Of a stretch of 58,690 nucleotides of DNA, positions 17,312 through 45,825 are shown piece by piece (positions within the stretch are counted from its first letter, which is position 1; every line of letters begins with the position of its first letter). Made by a program: the position numbers and the translations under genes. Below the pieces are notes generated by a model. It saw nothing but the letters and a program-made list of their open reading frames with translations, made no database searches and was not told the origin of the DNA. This DNA comes from Lactiplantibacillus garii (GTDB taxonomy: Bacteria > Bacillota > Bacilli > Lactobacillales > Lactobacillaceae): the NCBI RefSeq assembly GCF_003885105.1, contig NZ_QWZQ01000017.1, positions 1 through 58,690 of the forward strand, read 5' to 3'.

Positions 17312-17585
17312 AAAAAAGCGTCGCCCTGAAATAATGTTTGTCATTATTCAGGACGACGCTGGGCCGTGGTACCACCTGGTTTTAAGCCGTATCACTACGA
17401 CTTACTCAAGACAACTGCACGTGCAATTGCCAACTAGGCTAACGGCTAGTTAAACCGGCTTTGATTTGCTTAACTGTTCATCAAAGCGAACTGTACCCGA
17501 GACCATCTTCATTGGTTGCCCCGGTGTCGTTTCACCACCCCGACACTCGCTGTACGGTTTCACCAACTACTCATCTTTTAATCGT
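17312..17585 (-). promoter_or_regulatory. T-box leader controlling the MetE-like gene
   Basis: Read on the minus strand: a stem I starting AGATGAGTAG near 17577; the T-box core AGGTGGTACCACGG at 17364-17377, close to consensus AGGGTGGNACCGCG; then a long terminator hairpin (17317-17360, AGCGTCGTCCTGAATAATG and its partner) with a T-run to 17312. An ATG triplet (17504-17506) follows GAAG where the specifier loop is expected, which would mean tRNA-Met; this reading fits the downstream gene but rests on an unmodelled fold. Confidence 0.9.
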
Positions 17586-17718
17586 TCTTTAATTATTGAA
17601 TTCTATCTTACGGGTCTTTACTCGGAAAGTCAAATTTAATTTAAAACCCCGACCAATCGTTCCCGTAAAACTTATCATAATGCTATAATGCAACTAATAT
17701 ATCAAATGGGGGTTCACG

Positions 17719-39452: not shown

Positions 39453-39595
39453 TTTGATCACTCCTCATTCTCTCACCTAATCATCATAAGCCCGGGACGG
39501 GTGGGGGAGCAAGTTGGGATGCGGAAAATTCAGCTGGTTCGTTCGTAAAAATGGCTGGGGTTTGCCGCGGAAGTACGTAATTAACGGTGATTGCC

Positions 39596-39701
39596 GAAAC
39601 GTGCTCTGGCCCAGCTGCTCCCTGTGCTTGCTATGCTACCAGCACCATGCCCAACCCGCATGATAAATGCTCAGGAGCAACCCGCTTGGACCTCACACTC
39701 T
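39596..39701 (-). repeat. Dispersed repeat, family B-like (divergent)
   Basis: On the minus strand it begins AGAGTGTGAGGTCCAAGCGG, has ATGCGGGTTGGGCAT in the middle and ends GAGCACGTTTCG, matching the 15056-15285 units (AGAGTGTGAGG, ATGCGGGCTGGGCAT, GAGCACGTTTCAA). It touches the terminator of the small RNA at 39704. The flanking 39462-39595 shows nothing recognisable. Confidence 0.65.
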
Positions 39702-39703
39702 AC

Positions 39704-39839
39704 AAAAAAACCACCGCCTCAGCGATGGTAGGAGTAGTTCATTTCGCAAGGTGGAGTGCCCAGCGAAACTGATTTTCATTAACTTTGGAGGAGTAAATGA
39801 AAAAGGTTCTGATGACTGGGCGTAAAACTCAGTCACCAT
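39704..39839 (-). ncRNA. Predicted small RNA 1 (C-rich-loop family)
   Basis: Minus-strand reading, 5' to 3': hairpin 39813-39835; hairpin 39774-39802 with stem TTTCATT/AATGAAA and loop TACTCCTCCAAAGTT; hairpin 39742-39768 with stem TTTCGC/GCGAAA and loop TGGGCACTCCACCTT; unpaired CTACTCCT; terminator CCATCGCTGAGGCGGTGG with seven T's. Loops expose sequences complementary to Shine-Dalgarno sites. No open frame of note on this strand. Family call rests on three more copies at 40683, 42315 and 45015. Confidence 0.6.
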
Positions 39840-39845
39840 GTTATC

Positions 39846-39874
39846 AGTATAGTCCTTTGATTGTTAAAAGATAA
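39846..39874 (-). promoter_or_regulatory. Promoter of small RNA 1
   Basis: Minus strand TTATCT (39869-39874), 17 bases, TATACT (39846-39851), placing a transcript start near 39839. Confidence 0.5.
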
Positions 39875-39938
39875 ACGAAAACACCGTTTATTCGACAATG
39901 ATTACGTGAACGGGTCAAGTGTTGCAGTTTTACCGCGA

Positions 39939-40565
39939 TTAGATGGCCGTGCGGGACTTGGTCGTTAACTGGTTATGTTGAAACGTTAACGTCACGTTTG
40001 CCGCGGGCTGGCCCTGAATGTGATCGTACGTGACCGTTTGGACGTTCTCAGTTGCGGTCCCCCGGTTAGAAACGACGTTGGGCGTTCCGAGTTTAGCAGT
40101 AACTTGGTCGTAGGCCGCACCGGTCGGTAATTGATCCAGAGCTGCCGTAGTGATTTTGGTGTTTGGGTCTAACTTTGCGTCCCGGTAATTCTTCGCAACG
40201 ACGCTATTATCGTGGAAGCTAACGCTGACTACGGCCCCGGCTAAACTTTTATCCGGATTTTCCCAAACGTAGGTTTTGACAGGACGGTCGTAGGCGTTTA
40301 AATGCGTGTAAGTCGTGTGATTAGGTTTACCGAGTAATGCCCGGACCTGTTCAATGGTGCTGGCATAGTCGTCTGGTTTAATGGCTAGTTGAATGCGATC
40401 AAAATTAGCACGGGTTACCCCCGGAATAAGTTTAGTTGTGCTGGGCCGCGAGGTGGCGCGGCGGTCGTCGTGGTGTGTGGCTGAAGACGTTGCGGTAGGA
40501 TGACTACACGCGGTTAACGTCAAAAGTAACAGGCCTGAAAGTGCCACGATGATGTTTCTGAACAT
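39939..40565 (-). CDS. Lipoprotein with two BLIP/SmpA-like (DUF3862-type) repeats
   Basis: 208 residues from ATG 40565, eight or nine bases after GGGGGA; a longer upstream reading frame has no ribosome site. Signal peptide with lipobox LTAC (Cys at about 20) and a Ser/Thr/His-rich linker to about 45. Two similar units follow: ANFDRIQ...STIEQVRALLGKPNHTTY and TTAALDQLPTGAAYDQVTAKLGTPNVV, the pattern of BLIP-fold DUF3862/SmpA-OmlA domains found in lactic acid bacterial lipoproteins. Function unknown; it lies between two of the predicted small RNAs. Confidence 0.8.
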   Translation of the reverse strand: MFRNIIVALSGLLLLTLTACSHPTATSSATHHDDRRATSRPSTTKLIPGVTRANFDRIQLAIKPDDYASTIEQVRALLGKPNHTTYTHLNAYDRPVKTYVWENPDKSLAGAVVSVSFHDNSVVAKNYRDAKLDPNTKITTAALDQLPTGAAYDQVTAKLGTPNVVSNRGTATENVQTVTYDHIQGQPAANVTLTFQHNQLTTKSRTAI

Positions 40566-40682
40566 TGGTTGATTCCCCCATGGTTTTGAAAAACGGTCTA
40601 GTCCTTTTTCAATAAAGATACCATTGATTTTCAGAGATGTACATAGGTGCCGTGAAAAAGTGAAGAAAATGATGTGGACAAT

Positions 40683-40835
40683 AAAAAACCACCGTATCGG
40701 GGAATACGGTGGAAAAAGGAGTAGGGTAGGCATGCGACGGGGAATCACATGCCACTATGAATTTCATTACTTTGGAGGAGTAAATGAAAAATTTTAGGTT
40801 GTGTTATAGCTGATTGAGTTAACCTCAATTGCTAT
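40683..40835 (-). ncRNA. Predicted small RNA 2 (C-rich-loop family)
   Basis: Minus strand: 5' hairpin ATTGAG/CTCAAT (40813-40829); hairpin 40762-40789 with stem TTTCATT/AATGAAA and loop TACTCCTCCAAAGT; hairpin GGCATGTG/CGCATGCC (40729-40753) with loop ATTCCCCGT; unpaired TACCCTACTCCT; terminator CCACCGTAT/ATACGGTGG with loop TCCCCG (40689-40712) and six T's. A -10-like TATGAT lies at 40842-40847 but no clear -35, so the 5' end is approximate. Confidence 0.6.
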
Positions 40836-40919
40836 GATGTAATCATACCGAGGGCGTGTGAAGAATATGTGAACGAACCGGTTTAATGTGGTGAAAAAAG
40901 TAATAAGGAAAGTTAAAGA

Positions 40920-41033
40920 GTGCAAAAAAAGCCGGTCAGCTTCTGAGCAGAGCCTAGGCCCGCCGATAATCAACGGTTTGTGTTGATTGTCGGCGGGCCG
41001 TAGCTCAGCGCAGGAAGTTGGCTTTTTTTGCAC
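40920..41033. repeat. 114-bp palindrome with terminator-like ends on both strands
   Basis: Outer arms GTGCAAAAAAAGCC (40920-40933) and GGCTTTTTTTGCAC (41020-41033) are perfectly inverted; inner arms of 18 bp (GGCCCGCCGATAATCAAC at 40957-40974, 40982-40999) pair with one G-U and leave a 7-base loop. Each strand therefore reads as a hairpin ending GGCTTTTTTT. The surrounding 40848-41133 holds no credible gene. Confidence 0.8.
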
Positions 41034-41133
41034 GTTTCTAAAGCGGCAATGGAGGGTTTAAAGGCTAAGATGTGCCGCAATAATGAGGGTGGTAGGCTGT
41101 GGTGGGCTGTAACTAGCGCGAGCAACATCGGTA

Positions 41134-41178
41134 ATAAAAAAAGGATCCACAACCAACGTTTTTCAACGGTTGTGGATC
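41134..41178 (-). terminator. Terminator of the zinc peptidase gene
   Basis: Minus strand GGATCCACAACC/GGTTGTGGATCC, 12-bp perfect stem, followed by seven T's. Confidence 0.9.
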
Positions 41179-41196
41179 CAAAATAGTTTCGTCATT

Positions 41197-41895
41197 TTAA
41201 TTGTCGTCGCGATGACCACCGAAAAGAATAATCAACCGCAGTAGTTGTAAGAAAGTTGACAGTGCGGCGGCCACGTAAGTCAACGCGGCGGCGACCAATA
41301 CTTTCCGTACCATGGGAACTTCGTCGCGGGTCAAAACTTGACCGTTGGACAGGATTTGTAAAGCTCGGCGTGACGCGTTAAATTCTACGGGGAGTGTCAC
41401 GAGTTGAAATAGTAGTGCTAATGAAAAGAGAAAAATACCAACGTGGATCAGCGTTTGGTTGTAACTGAGTAAAACGCCGACGATGATAATCGGTAACGAT
41501 AACGTTGAACCGAGGTTAGCCGCCGGAACCAGGGCCGTACGTAACCGCATGGGCCAGTAGTTGACGTGGTCTTGAACGGCGTGACCGCATTCGTGAGCAG
41601 CCACACCAATGGCTGCCACCGAAGTTGAATCAGCTGTAGATTCGGATAGGCTCAGGACCTTAGTTTGACCATTATAGTTATCGGTCAAATCACCACTGAT
41701 TTTTTGGACGCCAACGTCGTTAATGCCGGACTGCGACAAAATGAACCGGGCCGCGTCACTACCGGAGTAGTTGGACTGGCTACGGTACGCGTCAAAGTGG
41801 CGGAATGTACGGTTAACGTACGCGGACGCTGCCATTGAAATGACCAAGCCAATGATCACGAGTAAATAAGTTGGATCAAAAAATGAATAGAACAA
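41197..41895 (-). CDS. Membrane zinc metallopeptidase (YugP family)
   Basis: 232 residues from TTG 41895, seven bases after AGGAGG. Helix at about 9-24, catalytic zinc motif HECGH at 101-105 followed by AVQDH, then three more helices (about 120-165 and 200-225). LPVEFNASRRALQIL after the second helix pair carries the conserved Glu that completes the zinc site. The catalytic domain faces the cytoplasm in the family model. Substrate unknown. Monocistronic. Confidence 0.93.
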   Translation of the reverse strand: MFYSFFDPTYLLVIIGLVISMAASAYVNRTFRHFDAYRSQSNYSGSDAARFILSQSGINDVGVQKISGDLTDNYNGQTKVLSLSESTADSTSVAAIGVAAHECGHAVQDHVNYWPMRLRTALVPAANLGSTLSLPIIIVGVLLSYNQTLIHVGIFLFSLALLFQLVTLPVEFNASRRALQILSNGQVLTRDEVPMVRKVLVAAALTYVAAALSTFLQLLRLIILFGGHRDDN

Positions 41896-41992
41896 ACTGA
41901 TTCCTCCTCATGGTTGGGATGTTGTTAACGGATATTTTAGCAGATTTAATGAACGGATACCAAATCAAGATTGGTCAGAAGTGTTTTTTCTG

Positions 41993-42019
41993 TTGCCTTA
42001 CAAACGGACTCGGTATAAT
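41993..42019 (+). promoter_or_regulatory. Promoter of the 55-residue protein gene
   Basis: TTGCCT (41993-41998), 15 bases, TATAAT (42014-42019). Spacing is short. Confidence 0.5.
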
Positions 42020-42066
42020 TCGGGGTGTCTAGATGTTACCGAGTTCAAAGTTAGGGGTAAGGACAA

Positions 42067-42234
42067 ATGGAGAAAGTATATCGCACGCTAACCTATGGGG
42101 AGATTCCTTTAAGACTTGACTCCGGTAAGGGGTGGGTGTTTCCAAAGGGTGTCGAGATTAAAGCCAAGGTCAATATGGACACTGGGGAAGTCACGTTTTT
42201 TATTGAGCCGCAGGATTTGGAAGCATTGAAATAA
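42067..42234 (+). CDS. Small protein of unknown function, 55 residues
   Basis: ATG 42067 follows TAAGGA; the gene has its own promoter and a strong terminator. The peptide starts MEKVYRTLTYGEIPLRL, then GKGWVFPKGVEIKAKVN and TGEVTFFIEPQDLEALK. Alternating hydrophobic residues suggest a small beta-sheet protein. No family recognised. Confidence 0.65.
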   Translation: MEKVYRTLTYGEIPLRLDSGKGWVFPKGVEIKAKVNMDTGEVTFFIEPQDLEALK

Positions 42235-42242
42235 ACTGATTG

Positions 42243-42292
42243 AGCACGGGTGTTAGGTGACCCCGCTGTCACCTAACACCCGTGTTATTTTT
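42243..42292 (+). terminator. Terminator of the 55-residue protein gene
   Basis: ACGGGTGTTAGGTGAC/GTCACCTAACACCCGT, a 16-bp perfect stem, then TTATTTTT. Confidence 0.9.
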
Positions 42293-42314
42293 GAAACCCG
42301 GATACCAGCACGTC

Positions 42315-42459
42315 AAAAAACCTCCGTACGGGGAATACGGAGGAAAAGGGAAAGTAAATGTTAAATTAGGATACACACACATCAATCCATTGCTTGGGGG
42401 GTAATGAATGATTAAAGTTAGGGGGTCGTTAAGGAATGGGGAGTTCCTTAATGACTATG
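42315..42459 (-). ncRNA. Predicted small RNA 3 (C-rich-loop family)
   Basis: Minus strand: hairpin TTAAGGAA/TTCCTTAA (42429-42451) with loop CTCCCCA; unpaired ACCCCCT; hairpin around 42380-42415 with CATT/AATG closing a loop ACCCCCCAAGC; linker rich in TTTCCC; terminator CCTCCGTA/TACGGAGG (42321-42343) with loop TTCCCCG and six T's. A TATACT -10 lies at 42465-42470, with a weak -35. Confidence 0.6.
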
Positions 42460-42657
42460 AACACAGTATAGCGGCTGGTCATGAAGAAATTGTGATGGCA
42501 AAACACTAAAAGGGTGATCTTCATTTGAAAAATTGGTAGTACCCGTTGAGCCTTGCACGCTTTTACAAAGTTTATAATCAAATTATGTTACGTACGCAAC
42601 TAAAGGGCGCCCAAAACATTGATGTAGCGCGCTTGTCTGCTTGGAAAAAAGGCGTGA

Positions 42658-42666
42658 TGCTATAAT
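42658..42666 (+). promoter_or_regulatory. Promoter of the degV-like gene
   Basis: Extended -10 TGCTATAAT, 31 bases before the start codon. Confidence 0.55.
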
Positions 42667-42697
42667 CGGTACAACTTAATCGAAAGCGTGATTTCTA

Positions 42698-43537
42698 ATG
42701 AAGATTAAAATCGTCACTGATTCTGCGGTCCAGTTGACCGCGGCTGAAATTAAACAATATGATATTCAAGTTGTGCCGTTGCTAGTGGGGTTTGGCGGCG
42801 ATTTGATCGCCGACACCGCGGTTGACCCGGCGGAATTTGACCGACAAATGAGCATTAGTCCCGTCTTGCCAACGACGAGTCAACCGCCCATTGGCGACTT
42901 TGTGAGCGTGTACGATGCGTTGACGGCGGACGGAAGCCAAGTCCTGTCACTCCATTTGACGGAAACACTTAGTGGGACGGTCAACGCGGCCCGCCAAGCA
43001 GCTAAGTTGAGCCAGGGGGACGTTACGGTCGTTGACACGCAGGCAGCCGATCGCGGGATGGCTTTTCAGGTCCTAACCGCCGCCCGAATGGCGCACGCCG
43101 GGGCTAACATGGCGACCATTCTAGCTAAAATTGCGGTCATTCGGCAGCATACTAAAACTTACCTGTTTGTCGATACGCTGGATAACCTCGTTAAGGGTGG
43201 CCGGGTTCCCAAGTTAGCAGGAGTTGTGACCAACTTGATCAAACTGAAGTTTGTGTTTGAATTGGTTGATGGCAAGCTAAAATTTTACACCCGGGGGCGC
43301 GGAAAAAAAGCGTTGATCAAGGCGCAGGAACGGATTTTAGCTGAGTTACAGGATGCGACCCGAATCGAAGCGGCGGGTATTTCGTACGTTGGCGATCCGA
43401 GTGTGGCCCGTGAACCGGAGGCCCTCTTAAAAAAGGTGACCCCCCAAGCAGATCTAATGTGCGCGCGGACTAGCGCCGTCATAGCAACTCACGCCGGCGT
43501 GGGCGCGTACGCCCTGATGTTTTATACTGTGGATTAA
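42698..43537 (+). CDS. DegV-family fatty-acid-binding protein
   Basis: 279 residues. DegV/FakB proteins hold a fatty acid for phosphorylation by the kinase FakA. Marks: KIVTDSAVQL at the N-terminus (usual TDSxxDL), PTTSQPPIGDFVSVYDAL (the TSQP fatty-acid loop), LTETLSGTVNAARQA (SGTYQ-like), and KGGRVPKLAGVV. The ribosome site before ATG 42698 is weak (GAAAG), so the start relies on homology-like length. Monocistronic. Confidence 0.92.
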   Translation: MKIKIVTDSAVQLTAAEIKQYDIQVVPLLVGFGGDLIADTAVDPAEFDRQMSISPVLPTTSQPPIGDFVSVYDALTADGSQVLSLHLTETLSGTVNAARQAAKLSQGDVTVVDTQAADRGMAFQVLTAARMAHAGANMATILAKIAVIRQHTKTYLFVDTLDNLVKGGRVPKLAGVVTNLIKLKFVFELVDGKLKFYTRGRGKKALIKAQERILAELQDATRIEAAGISYVGDPSVAREPEALLKKVTPQADLMCARTSAVIATHAGVGAYALMFYTVD

Positions 43538-43576
43538 ATTTAGTGTGTCGTTTTACTATTAAAATATTATTAGACA

Positions 43577-43585
43577 TGCTATAAT
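43577..43585 (+). promoter_or_regulatory. Promoter of lrgB-lrgA
   Basis: Extended -10 TGCTATAAT, about 130 bases before lrgB, which leaves a long leader. Confidence 0.6.
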
Positions 43586-43591
43586 TAATAA

Positions 43592-43677
43592 ATAATGAAT
43601 TAGAGCCGTGTTGGCGCACTGTTCTGAGCCTAACCACCATGTAAATGATGACTAGACCCGGATAGGGCGCCTTTTTT
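43592..43677 (+). promoter_or_regulatory. Structured leader with terminator upstream of lrgB
   Basis: From the inferred start the leader reads through a closing helix GGCGC (43613-43617) with GCGCC (43667-43671), an inner CCTA/TAGG pairing and a small CAT/ATG hairpin, then six T's (43672-43677). It ends 36 bases before lrgB. This looks like transcription attenuation; it matches no riboswitch class I recognise. Confidence 0.5.
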
Positions 43678-43713
43678 GTTACTCCCAGTCACTAAAAGAA
43701 AGTAGGAAAACGT

Positions 43714-44442
43714 GTGAATTATCTTCTCAATAATCCATTTTTCGGGATTGGACTCTCAGTCCTGGTTTACGGGATTGGCGAGTATTTATATCACAAAACA
43801 AATCGCTTCGTATTGTTCCAACCGTTATTTTTTGGAATGCTGCTCGGGATTGGTTTACTGGTATTGATGGCGTCGATTCTTCGAGCTCCCGTTCAGAAAG
43901 TTTATGAAGCGTACCAAGTGGGTGGTGACTGGCTATTCTGGTTCGTCGCACCCGCAACGGTCTCGTTTGCGGTGCCGCTGTATAAACGCAACGACATTTT
44001 TAAAAAGCACTGGGACGTGATTTTGATTGCGCTCTTCTTAGGACTGTTATTGTCATTATTTGGGATTTACGGGGTTTCTCGGTTGTTAGGGCTAACCGAC
44101 GCAGCCATGGGTGCCATGCTGGTGCAGGCCGCAACGACCGCCATCGCACTGCCAGTAGCGGAAGCGGTTGGTGGGGATGCCGCCATTGCGGCGTTCGCCG
44201 TTATTTTAAACTCTGTCTTGGTTTACGCGTTAGGTGATCACTTTATTCGGTGGTTTAAATTGCATAAGAACCCGTTGGGCGCTGGCCTAGGTTTTGGAAT
44301 CGCCGGTAATGCCGTGGGCGCGACTAAGGCAATTGAAGTGGGCGAAGCGGCGGGTGCGACCGGTGCAATTGCGTTCGTGATTGCTGGAATTCTCGTTAAC
44401 TTCATGGTTCCGGGGTTTGCAAGTTTGGTTGGTTTAGGTTAG
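43714..44442 (+). CDS. lrgB: LrgB-family membrane protein
   Basis: 242 residues from GTG 43714, six bases after AGGA. About eight helices. Marks: PLFFGMLLGIGLL, FVAPATVSFAVPLYK, TTAIALPVAEAVGGDAAIAA (the most conserved LrgB segment) and GNAVGATKAIEVGEAAGA. LrgAB/CidAB proteins influence murein hydrolase activity, and LrgAB takes part in pyruvate uptake in some Firmicutes. Here lrgB precedes lrgA, the reverse of the usual order, and no LytST two-component genes are adjacent. Confidence 0.92.
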   Translation: MNYLLNNPFFGIGLSVLVYGIGEYLYHKTNRFVLFQPLFFGMLLGIGLLVLMASILRAPVQKVYEAYQVGGDWLFWFVAPATVSFAVPLYKRNDIFKKHWDVILIALFLGLLLSLFGIYGVSRLLGLTDAAMGAMLVQAATTAIALPVAEAVGGDAAIAAFAVILNSVLVYALGDHFIRWFKLHKNPLGAGLGFGIAGNAVGATKAIEVGEAAGATGAIAFVIAGILVNFMVPGFASLVGLG

Positions 44443-44452
44443 GAGGAAATTA

Positions 44453-44872
44453 ATGAAAAAAGGTACTTTTATTAAGCAAATTATGATTTACGGTGTGATC
44501 CTATTTGTCAGTAGTTTACTCTCATACTTGTCCGGTCAATTGTGGCCCGCATTTCCCATGCCAACGGCGTTAATTGGGATGGTCATGCTGTACCTGTTAC
44601 TGACGTTTAAGGTTGTTAAGTTGGAGCAGGTTGCCGGGGTCAGCAACTTCTTTGTCCAGATTATTAGTTTAATTTTTATTCCATCTGGGATTGCGTTGGT
44701 GACCAAGCTGGACGTTTTAAAGGCGGAGGGGCTCCAAATCATTCTGGTCGTTATGCTTTCAACACTGATGTTACTCCTATTTACGGCTGGAATTGCCTGG
44801 ATTTTGGTTCAGGTCAAGGAGTGGTTGATGACGCGGAGCAATCGTTCAGCAGCGGATCTTGAAGAGGATTAA
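44453..44872 (+). CDS. lrgA: LrgA/CidA-family holin-like protein
   Basis: 139 residues; TAGGAGG before ATG 44453, 10 bases after lrgB. Four helices (about 8-27, 33-52, 64-84, 93-118). LWPAFPMPTALIGMVMLYLLL is the family signature (usual PGSxxGM). Acts in the membrane with LrgB. The charged C-terminus (SAADLEED) is cytoplasmic. Confidence 0.92.
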   Translation: MKKGTFIKQIMIYGVILFVSSLLSYLSGQLWPAFPMPTALIGMVMLYLLLTFKVVKLEQVAGVSNFFVQIISLIFIPSGIALVTKLDVLKAEGLQIILVVMLSTLMLLLFTAGIAWILVQVKEWLMTRSNRSAADLEED

Positions 44873-44929
44873 ATCCAGGTGGCACTCCATTTACCTCGTT
44901 GTAGATTGGGTACCAGTTGGATCTAATGA

Positions 44930-44968
44930 AGCGGACCCGGGGAAGCAAACGTTCCTGAGCCCGCTATT
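44930..44968 (+). terminator. Possible terminator of lrgBA
   Basis: AGCGGACCCGGGGAA pairs imperfectly with TTCCTGAGCCCGCT; the following T-run is weak. Confidence 0.4.
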
Positions 44969-45014
44969 TGACTGGTTAGTCAAGCTTTAGCCACGACGGC
45001 GTTAGTTTTTGCCA

Positions 45015-45221
45015 AATAAAAAGCCACTACATCAGCGGATGCAGTGGTCAAGGAGTAGGAAACATCAAAGTGGGGGCTTTGATGAACCCCATTCATAAGA
45101 CTTGGGGGAGTCCATGAATGAAAATGATTGTTAATCGACGTTATGGCAGCAACGCCACCAACAATCGCAAAACTAAAGAATATTAAGGATTGACAGTTAG
45201 TTGGTCACTTACTATCAATCT
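45015..45221 (-). ncRNA. Predicted small RNA 4 (C-rich-loop family, longest)
   Basis: Minus strand: 5' hairpin with arms GATTGATAGT/ACTGTCAATC; hairpin GATTGTT/AACAATC (45126-45166); hairpin CATTCAT/ATGAATG (45090-45120) with an inner GACT/AGTC stem and loop CCCCCA; hairpin CATCAAAG/CTTTGATG (45063-45084) with loop CCCCCA; unpaired CCTACTCCTT; terminator CCACTGCAT/ATGTAGTGG (45024-45047) and T-rich tail. It has the best promoter of the four. Confidence 0.65.
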
Positions 45222-45227
45222 GCGACT

Positions 45228-45256
45228 ATTATAATTGCAATCCCGTAAGCCTGCAA
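45228..45256 (-). promoter_or_regulatory. Promoter of small RNA 4
   Basis: Minus strand TTGCAG (45251-45256), 17 bases, TATAAT (45228-45233). Confidence 0.65.
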
Positions 45257-45273
45257 CTAATTGAGCTGATTAA

Positions 45274-45825
45274 TTATTTCAAGGAAATTCGTGGTTGAAA
45301 ATCTTCCGCAAATAAACCCATGTGGTACAAATCGTAACGATGCCCGTCACGCTTGACGGCGCGCGCGTTCGTTCCCTCAAATTCGAAGCCGCTATTTTGG
45401 TAAACTGCGATGGCAGATTGGTTTGTTGCGATGACGTCCAAACAAACTTTGTACAGGTTTAATTCGTTAAATCCGTAGTTGAGCATAAGATTTAACGACT
45501 CAGTACCATAACCTTGACCGCGATCTTCGGCGTTGCCGATTGCAATGGCTAGCTGGCCAACTTGATTGTTCCACTCAATGTTAAACAGGGTGACGAATCC
45601 TAGCAAGCGTTCGTCCGCTAAACTATGAATGTGAAAATAAAATTCGGTATTTTGATCTAAGTTACGGTAGGTACGTTCCAAGTCTTCCCCGGATAAGGGA
45701 CGGGCTGGCGCGGTATCCATTTTACGAACAAAGTCGGCGTCGGCGTACCAATCACTGATTTCGTCAAAGTCTTCTGGTTGGGGCACGTTTAACGCAACGC
45801 GCGGACCCACTAAAATATTTTTCAA
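45274..45825 (-). CDS. GNAT-family N-acetyltransferase (RimJ/RimL-like)
   Basis: 183 residues from TTG 45825, with GGGGGA nine bases upstream. Acetyl-CoA binding is shown by GNAEDRGQGYGTESLNLMLNYGF (motif A, Q-x-x-G-x-G/A) and the C-terminal NQSAIAVYQNSGFEFEGT motif B. The N-terminal VALNVPQPEDFDEISDWY is typical of RimJ/RimL-type proteins, which acetylate protein N-termini, polyamines or antibiotics. Substrate not predictable. Confidence 0.88.
   Translation of the reverse strand: MKNILVGPRVALNVPQPEDFDEISDWYADADFVRKMDTAPARPLSGEDLERTYRNLDQNTEFYFHIHSLADERLLGFVTLFNIEWNNQVGQLAIAIGNAEDRGQGYGTESLNLMLNYGFNELNLYKVCLDVIATNQSAIAVYQNSGFEFEGTNARAVKRDGHRYDLYHMGLFAEDFQPRISLK

Follow-up and report, generated by a model that had tools for sequence, protein, structure and literature searches.

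The window analysed here is a contig of Lactiplantibacillus garii (NZ_QWZQ01000017.1, 58,690 nucleotides, nt), which carries on its minus strand, between positions 39,704 and 45,221, four related small RNA (sRNA) genes that we call E1 to E4. Two more genes of the same kind, E5 and E6, are located on other contigs, and the family thus includes six copies in this Lactiplantibacillus genome. E1 to E6 are probably trans-acting sRNAs that a two-component system (TCS) would induce and that would block ribosome-binding sites, in a manner similar to LhrC of Listeria and to the csRNAs of streptococci. To our knowledge, few trans-acting sRNAs of lactobacilli have been characterised. The present family, conserved, multicopy, marked by its promoter and found also in L. 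plantarum, offers a defined set of genes for testing; it points to a two-component system that could be found through its box, and it may join two separately described RNAs, LhrC and Ref84.

Architecture and folding of the four elements

The elements and their main hairpins (HP1, HP2) are as follows (SD, Shine-Dalgarno).

39704 to 39839, minus strand: E1 sRNA, about 136 nt; 5' hairpin, HP1 with loop CCTCCAA, HP2, linker CTACTCCT, terminator
39773 to 39804, minus strand: HP1 of E1, putative anti-SD/anti-start hairpin
40683 to 40835, minus strand: E2 sRNA, about 153 nt; 5' hairpin, HP1, HP2, linker CCCTACTCCTTTTT, terminator with loop CCCC
40762 to 40789, minus strand: HP1 of E2, loop CCTCCAA; 5' arm and loop complementary to GGAGGAGUAAAUGAAA
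40729 to 40753, minus strand: HP2 of E2, loop TCCCC; both-sided changes in 6 of its 10 pairs
42315 to 42458, minus strand: E3 sRNA, about 144 nt; 5' hairpin with loop CTCCCCA, HP1 with loop CCCCCC, linker ACTTTCCCTTTT, terminator with loop TCCCC
45015 to 45221, minus strand: E4 sRNA, about 207 nt; two 5' hairpins, HP1 and HP2 both with loop CCCCCA, linker CTACTCCT, terminator

A first-pass annotation of the window had placed four such elements on this strand, and the predicted 5' ends, 6 nt after each chosen -10 hexamer (39839, 40835, 42458 and 45221), practically coincide with the boundaries that it gave. The unit common to the family consists of HP1, usually HP2, a C/T-rich linker and a terminator. 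All four elements follow this plan as announced, except that E3 has no HP2, possessing instead the 5' hairpin with loop CTCCCCA, and that the terminator loop of E1 is not C-rich. C/U-rich sites are present in hairpin loop, linker and terminator loop of E2 and E3, in the loops and linker of E4, and in E1 everywhere but in the terminator loop. The linker, which had been described as shared by three elements, reads UACUCCU as RNA in E1, E2 and E4; that of E3 is ACUUUCCCUUUU, its DNA being ACTTTCCCTTTT rather than CTACTCCT. The HP1 sequence of E2, as RNA, is UUUCAUUUACUCCUCCAAAGUAAUGAAA, and HP1 contains UUUCAUUUACUCCUCC. The core TTTCATTTACTCCTCCAAAG occurs exactly twice, in E1 and E2, for an expectation of 0.01 even when up to 3 mismatches are allowed.

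Each element folds more stably than all of its 200 shuffles, with minimum free energy z-scores of -4.5 for E1, -6.9 for E2, -4.4 for E3 and -4.5 for E4 (positions 45015-45160, 146 of the 207 nt). The opposite, plus strands are less stable, with z-scores of -2.5 for E1 and -2.9 for E2. An element-finding rule, tuned on E1 to E4 themselves, returned four minus-strand places and no plus-strand place over the 58.7 kb of the window.

Further copies and conservation in the genus

E5 was found by BLAST with E2 in the same genome (C136:42077-42349), and E6, on contig C116 and adjoining a MarR-type gene, by the promoter-box search alone: the two perfect sites given by the box pattern in this genome are those of E2 and E6. 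A covariance model built solely from E1- and E2-type rows, R1, recovered the other, unseen types with E-values of 8.7e-7 for E3, 1.1e-4 for E4, 5.9e-6 for E5 and 5e-3 for E6 (search space 429 kb). It gave 4 to 8 matches, in which E5 may count twice, in each of 15 genomes of the genus, and E2 is present in 21 of 21 Lactiplantibacillus genomes. When the element rule was applied to the cluster regions of 20 relatives, 74 places were returned in the sRNA direction and none in the opposite one. Two of them (L062 and L063, loop AACCCA) were discarded as false. The 72 retained and the four of the window make 76 elements, namely 14 E1 (the E1 alignment thus having 14 rows, window included), 20 E2, 29 E3 and 13 E4; some elements detected by R1, for instance E2 in genome G007 and E1 in G010, escape the rule.

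Some features of the surrounding DNA can be mentioned. E5 holds an extra, nearly invariant segment, GCGGCATGTGAACGTCCCCCCGCTTATATGAATAAACG (L014:2230-2268), in 21 copies, and none was seen in the other copies. Similar GC-rich stretches (GTAGAGTGTGAG..CAAGCGGGTTG..GCGGGTT.GGCAT; window 39587-39715 and L014:2350-2440) lie 3' of the E1 and E5 terminators and, by eye, look like a dispersed repeat. Upstream of E2, a big hairpin-forming stretch occupies window positions 40921-41032, where the aligned upstream regions of other genomes differ.

The E2 set used for covariation comprised 21 orthologues with 18 distinct rows. Across these rows HP1 is invariant in its 10 pairs and its loop. The both-sided changes are those of HP2, although 11 of the 18 rows do not form one of its pairs (columns 50/56). 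The full E2 structure shows 24 double-change cells versus 10.9 in shuffles, none of 500 shuffles being as high, and slid controls collapse. The compensatory changes in HP2 support the view that the RNA structure is under selection. The idea that stems vary beneath C-rich loops suits HP2 and fails for HP1, the stem of which does not vary among E2 orthologues.

This conservation bears on the possibility that the elements are repeats resembling miniature inverted-repeat transposable elements, or small coding genes, that mimic sRNAs. Copies are indeed both tandem and dispersed, and an open frame spans E2. On the other hand, E2 and its promoter are conserved genus-wide with compensatory stem changes, the E2 frame is disrupted by one-base indels in two genomes (G013 and G007) and it runs across the terminator. 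Over the 76 elements, 4 overlap a frame of at least 100 codons, the window's case being an upstream extension of the DUF3862 gene frame. We give this explanation hardly any credence.

One would also wonder whether the elements act in cis, as leaders or attenuators of the downstream genes (a hydrolase, a DUF3862 lipoprotein and a zinc peptidase), since E1, E2 and E3 sit 5' of codirectional genes. A leader should keep its gene, and the changing neighbours speak against this: in G010 the gene that follows E2 is a different one, E3 forms four tandem copies within a single intergenic region of G005 and lies beside unrelated genes in G003, E4 is convergent with lrgA, and E5 and E6 have other neighbours. 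Moreover, every element has its own terminator-like hairpin. A role as cis-acting leaders is thus very improbable, and the reading of the elements as independent sRNA genes is retained below.

A promoter box shared by part of the family

The predicted promoter elements of the window, with -10 hexamers assigned by eye and from alignments, are the following.

39846 to 39851, minus strand: predicted -10 of E1, TATACT; no upstream box, best score 6 of 12, which is background
40857 to 40873, minus strand: predicted response-regulator box of E2, direct repeat TTCACA-N5-TTCACA
40842 to 40847, minus strand: predicted -10 of E2, TATGAT, 9 nt 3' of the box
42480 to 42495, minus strand: box of E3, TCACA-N5-TTCATG, score 9 of 12
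42465 to 42470, minus strand: predicted -10 of E3, TATACT
45228 to 45233, minus strand: predicted -10 of E4, TATAAT, with TTGCAG 17 nt upstream; no box

In 20 of 20 aligned E2 promoters, (T/G)TCACA-N5-TTCACA sits 9 nt before TATGAT. With a 12-point box score that requires the -10 (main cut-off at least 10), all 20 reach 11 to 12. E5 promoters score 9 to 11, with 11 of 21 at the cut-off and 21 of 21 when TTCAYA is allowed. Six Paucilactobacillus copies of the family show the box by eye. E4 rows display instead a TTGCAG-N17-TATAAT promoter. Genus-wide, TCACA-N5-TTCAC-N10-TANNNT occurs at 69 sites versus 1 for the reversed control. By the letters of the site, 56 of these belong to known types (21 E6, 20 E2, 11 E3-type and 4 E5) and 13 to others; at the 14 E6-class loci that were read, the sRNA follows in 14. 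Direct repeats with an 11-bp period, conserved and at a fixed distance from the -10, are what would be expected of the binding site of an OmpR-type response regulator.

The box is not confined to sRNA genes. In inverted form (TRTGAA-N5-TGTGAA) it precedes prsA, which encodes a foldase, in all 21 of the Lactiplantibacillus genomes (L289-L309), our genome having a one-mismatch version (L126:1501-1517, that is C77:27075-27091). It lies at the edge of a conserved block, and the DNA on its far side diverges. Among 20000 stretches of 220 nt drawn at random from the cluster loci, sRNA promoters included, 213 contain a pair of this kind in one direction or the other. A prsA gene carrying the box would fit a secretion-stress regulon.

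Two other repeats were noticed. Several relatives have, 5' of E2, another conserved repeat that resembles CTTAACAAAGGCTTAG and starts some 45 bp before the main box. Elsewhere in the genome, TTTACAATTTCTTTACA (C44:51063-51079, L128:1501-1517; inversely TGTAAA-N5-TGTAAA), which we take to be a WalR-like site, is placed just 5' of a gene resembling, by eye, that of a secreted lysozyme-type hydrolase.

Distribution beyond the genus

The first-pass annotation had spoken of a local set. This description has to be abandoned, given the two copies elsewhere in the genome and the matches in 19 of the 40 sampled Lactobacillaceae genera and in other families of Lactobacillales. At an E-value of at most 0.01, R1 matches 133 of 301 Lactobacillaceae genomes, a count that includes the genus as well as weaker matches (1e-3 to 1e-2) accepted by model E-value alone. 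Across Lactobacillales, R1 has matches in 106 of 395 genomes, of which 63 belong to families other than Lactobacillaceae; about 4 chance matches are expected at this cut-off. The exact HP1 pattern is far narrower: in a collection of 84,980 species it gave 35 stretches, all from Lactiplantibacillus, Paucilactobacillus or an uncultured Lactobacillus metagenome-assembled genome.

For 41 of the better R1 matches listed outside the genus, the loops and promoters were analysed in detail. The HP1 loop contains CC in 41 of 41, so that the claim that loops stay C-rich is borne out for this hairpin; it does not extend to the 8 terminator loops and the 13 HP2 loops devoid of CC (one relative, L199, has no HP2 at all). 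With the score chosen post hoc as explained below, a box with its -10 reaches at least 10 in 37 of the 41, versus 39 of 8200 dinucleotide shuffles (0.5%) and 0 of 41 antisense sequences. From the other families, 30 matches were examined, of which 21 score at least 10 with the TTCAYA consensus, versus 2.5% of block shuffles; copies of family f9 are the weakest in this respect (7 of 15).

Relation to known small RNAs

In the Rfam check suggested by the annotation, no element of the window is assigned to an Rfam sRNA family: at gathering thresholds the window gives only a T-box and a 5S fragment. A permissive search of positions 39600-45300 returned Ref84, OmrA-B, rli32, ceN30 and MIR856, every one below threshold, and LhrC (RF00616, gathering threshold 110 bits) gave no match there even at an E-value of 5. 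The E5 region has no Rfam match at an E-value of 1.

The annotation had likened these RNAs to streptococcal csRNAs. This comparison is sound, and a still closer likeness is found in Listeria LhrC (LhrC1-5, Rli22, Rli33-1), which is multicopy like our six-copy family. LhrC carries a C/U-rich site in each of hairpin A, a single-stranded linker and the terminator (PMC4132741, PMC7602753), a plan that E2 and E3 share in full. It also combines a region pairing with SD and start codon with dependence on a two-component system, as the same articles report; here the complement to SD and AUG is in HP1. By eye, the predicted 5' ends AUAGC.. and AUACC.. resemble the AUAAGC of LhrC. Three differences were noted: most window elements have the additional HP2; the LisR-responsive region of LhrC is reported upstream of -53, while the present box abuts the -10; and Hfq is reported to be missing from lactobacilli (PMC4132741).

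The csRNAs of the CiaRH regulon share direct hexamer repeats that are spaced by 5 nt and precede the -10 by about 10 nt; they too have anti-SD and anti-AUG sequences and exist in several copies (PMC3091779). They differ by the repeat itself, NTTAAG-N5-TTTAAG (hexamer TTTAAG) for CiaR versus the TTCACA type of E2, E3, E5 and E6, and by an anti-translation-initiation-region (anti-TIR) sequence that is unpaired instead of lying within a hairpin; CiaRH is reported from streptococci alone. The Listeria rli32 RNA (RF01468) gives a weak match to E2 over linker and terminator (26.1 bits, threshold 100) and departs from the window family in being VirR-dependent (PMC7602753). Ref84 of Enterococcus (RF02846) resembles the present family in its linker UACUCCUU, its CCACCG-type terminator and its 5' UACCAA..AACAAC. 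Its gathering threshold of 52 bits is not reached by E2 (27.6 bits) or E5 (23 bits), and the model gives below-cut-off matches in 7 of 14 control genomes, so that its weak matches mean little alone. Four such matches in our genome, L247 (28 bits), L249, L251 and L252, were rejected as chance-like, having neither the hairpin plan nor the box. No paper naming both Ref84 and Enterococcus faecalis was found, hence there is no function to compare.

TCS-driven multicopy anti-SD sRNAs are therefore a known kind; the Lactobacillaceae lineage, its box and its spread have not been described, so far as our searches go. We found no description of these RNAs in Lactobacillaceae in the open-access literature searched, subscription journals being mostly outside this coverage. 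A tiling-array study of L. plantarum WCFS1 (PMC3447810) reports 106 predicted start sites in regions where no gene is linked to them, and these could include the present sRNAs.

Proposed mechanism and its difficulties

The HP1 layout, which is that of LhrC (loop anti-SD, 5' arm anti-AUG), together with a promoter geometry and an anti-TIR logic similar to those of csRNAs, suggests that an OmpR-type regulator induces these RNAs and that they, in turn, repress the initiation of translation. We propose that such a regulator, which probably senses stress at the envelope or in secretion, binds TTCACA-N5-TTCACA immediately 5' of the -10 and thereby activates transcription of E2, E3, E5 and E6, E1 and E4 being driven from other promoters. 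The RNA would expose stretches rich in C and T: CUCCUCC in the loop of HP1, in most cases UCCCC in that of HP2, UACUCCU in the single-stranded linker and, frequently, another in the terminator loop. These stretches would make the first contact with Shine-Dalgarno sequences. HP1 would then open, and its 5' arm and loop (UUUUCAUUUACUCCUCC) would pair over SD and start codon, blocking initiation as reported for LhrC on lapB (PMC4132741). According to that article, LhrC has three redundant UCCC sites, each able to initiate the contact; stem-loop A then unfolds and pairs with lapB from -21 to +7. Lactobacilli are said there to have no Hfq homologue.

Several observations weigh against this proposal. 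E1 and E4 have no box, 13 of 14 E1 rows and 13 of 13 E4 rows scoring at most 7 (one E1 row reaches 10), and E3 fits it more poorly than E2, with scores of 8 to 11 and 9 of 29 rows at 10 or more, or 22 of 29 with TTCAYA allowed. The box score, its threshold and the -10 requirement were chosen post hoc from E2 and E3, and a score of at least 10 is reached by 2.4% of random stretches from the same loci, sRNA promoters included. A generic sigma-70 scan chose hexamers other than the assigned -10s, and its numbers of promoter-like sites (11 versus 7.4 expected) and terminator-like sites (10 versus 7.2) are unremarkable, the latter list including all four element terminators. A crude motif scan, run without a positive control, showed no response regulator gene near the fetched loci. 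The lack of CC in 13 HP2 loops outside the genus is a further difficulty.

The target searches belong to the same side of the balance. Within 3 mismatches, the complement of HP1 is found in the same genome only at E1, E2 and E5 themselves, and two looser patterns each retrieved, besides the sRNA loci, a single additional site (L258 and L255), neither being a convincing target; L258 was rejected, as it opens merely an 18-19-codon frame. Duplex energies of E2 with the start regions of window genes, calculated with no control set, revealed nothing convincing. The prediction of targets among ribosome sites, also advocated in the annotation, has thus yielded no specific target by pattern searches.

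The lack of a standout target fits short-seed pairing with many mRNAs, and equally a sponge. One could indeed assume that the RNAs are decoys, the C-rich loops of which would capture some RNA-binding protein, or G-rich RNA of any kind, and not individual mRNAs. The repetition of such loops in each molecule, the many copies and the lack of a specific target with long complementarity agree with this. Against it stand the anti-AUG conserved beside the anti-SD in HP1 and the reported pairing of comparable LhrC sites with mRNA (PMC4132741). We judge decoys unlikely, and prefer trans-acting repressors of translation initiation in spite of the difficulties listed above.

A possible wider family

A more ambitious and quite tentative hypothesis would be that LhrC, Ref84 and the Lactobacillaceae genes form one ancient Lactobacillales family, under one OmpR-type regulator recognising TTCAYA-N5-TTCAYA and belonging with prsA to an envelope or secretion-stress regulon. 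Supporting this idea, one R1 match (G466, E 8.8e-4) falls on an LhrC gene called by Rfam, in a stretch of 1.8 kb with three LhrC copies. L242, of family f5, appears intermediate, with 45.1 bits for Ref84 (threshold 52), 33.8 for LhrC (threshold 110) and a box scoring 11 of 12. The resemblance of the 5' ends points in the same direction.

It is also possible, if rather doubtful, that these RNAs have no common ancestry and have converged on a generic C-rich plan. The window elements are below the Rfam thresholds for Ref84 and LhrC, and UCCC loops are reported for several Gram-positive sRNAs (PMC4132741). Furthermore, the LhrC copy's own promoter has a box of just 9 of 12, a score reached by 15% of shuffles. 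Because this score is only at background, we slightly lowered our estimate for a single family under a single regulator. Were that hypothesis true, the regulon would reduce the burden of secreted proteins and at the same time increase a foldase. It would then correspond, in Gram-positive bacteria and without Hfq, to the sigma-E/Cpx sRNA response of E. coli.

Other attempts and features

A family-wide covariance model, R2, retained only terminator pairs and was left unused. Away from the sRNA cluster, the T-box found by Rfam is a leader on the minus strand at window positions 17346-17591 (RF00230, 97.2 bits).

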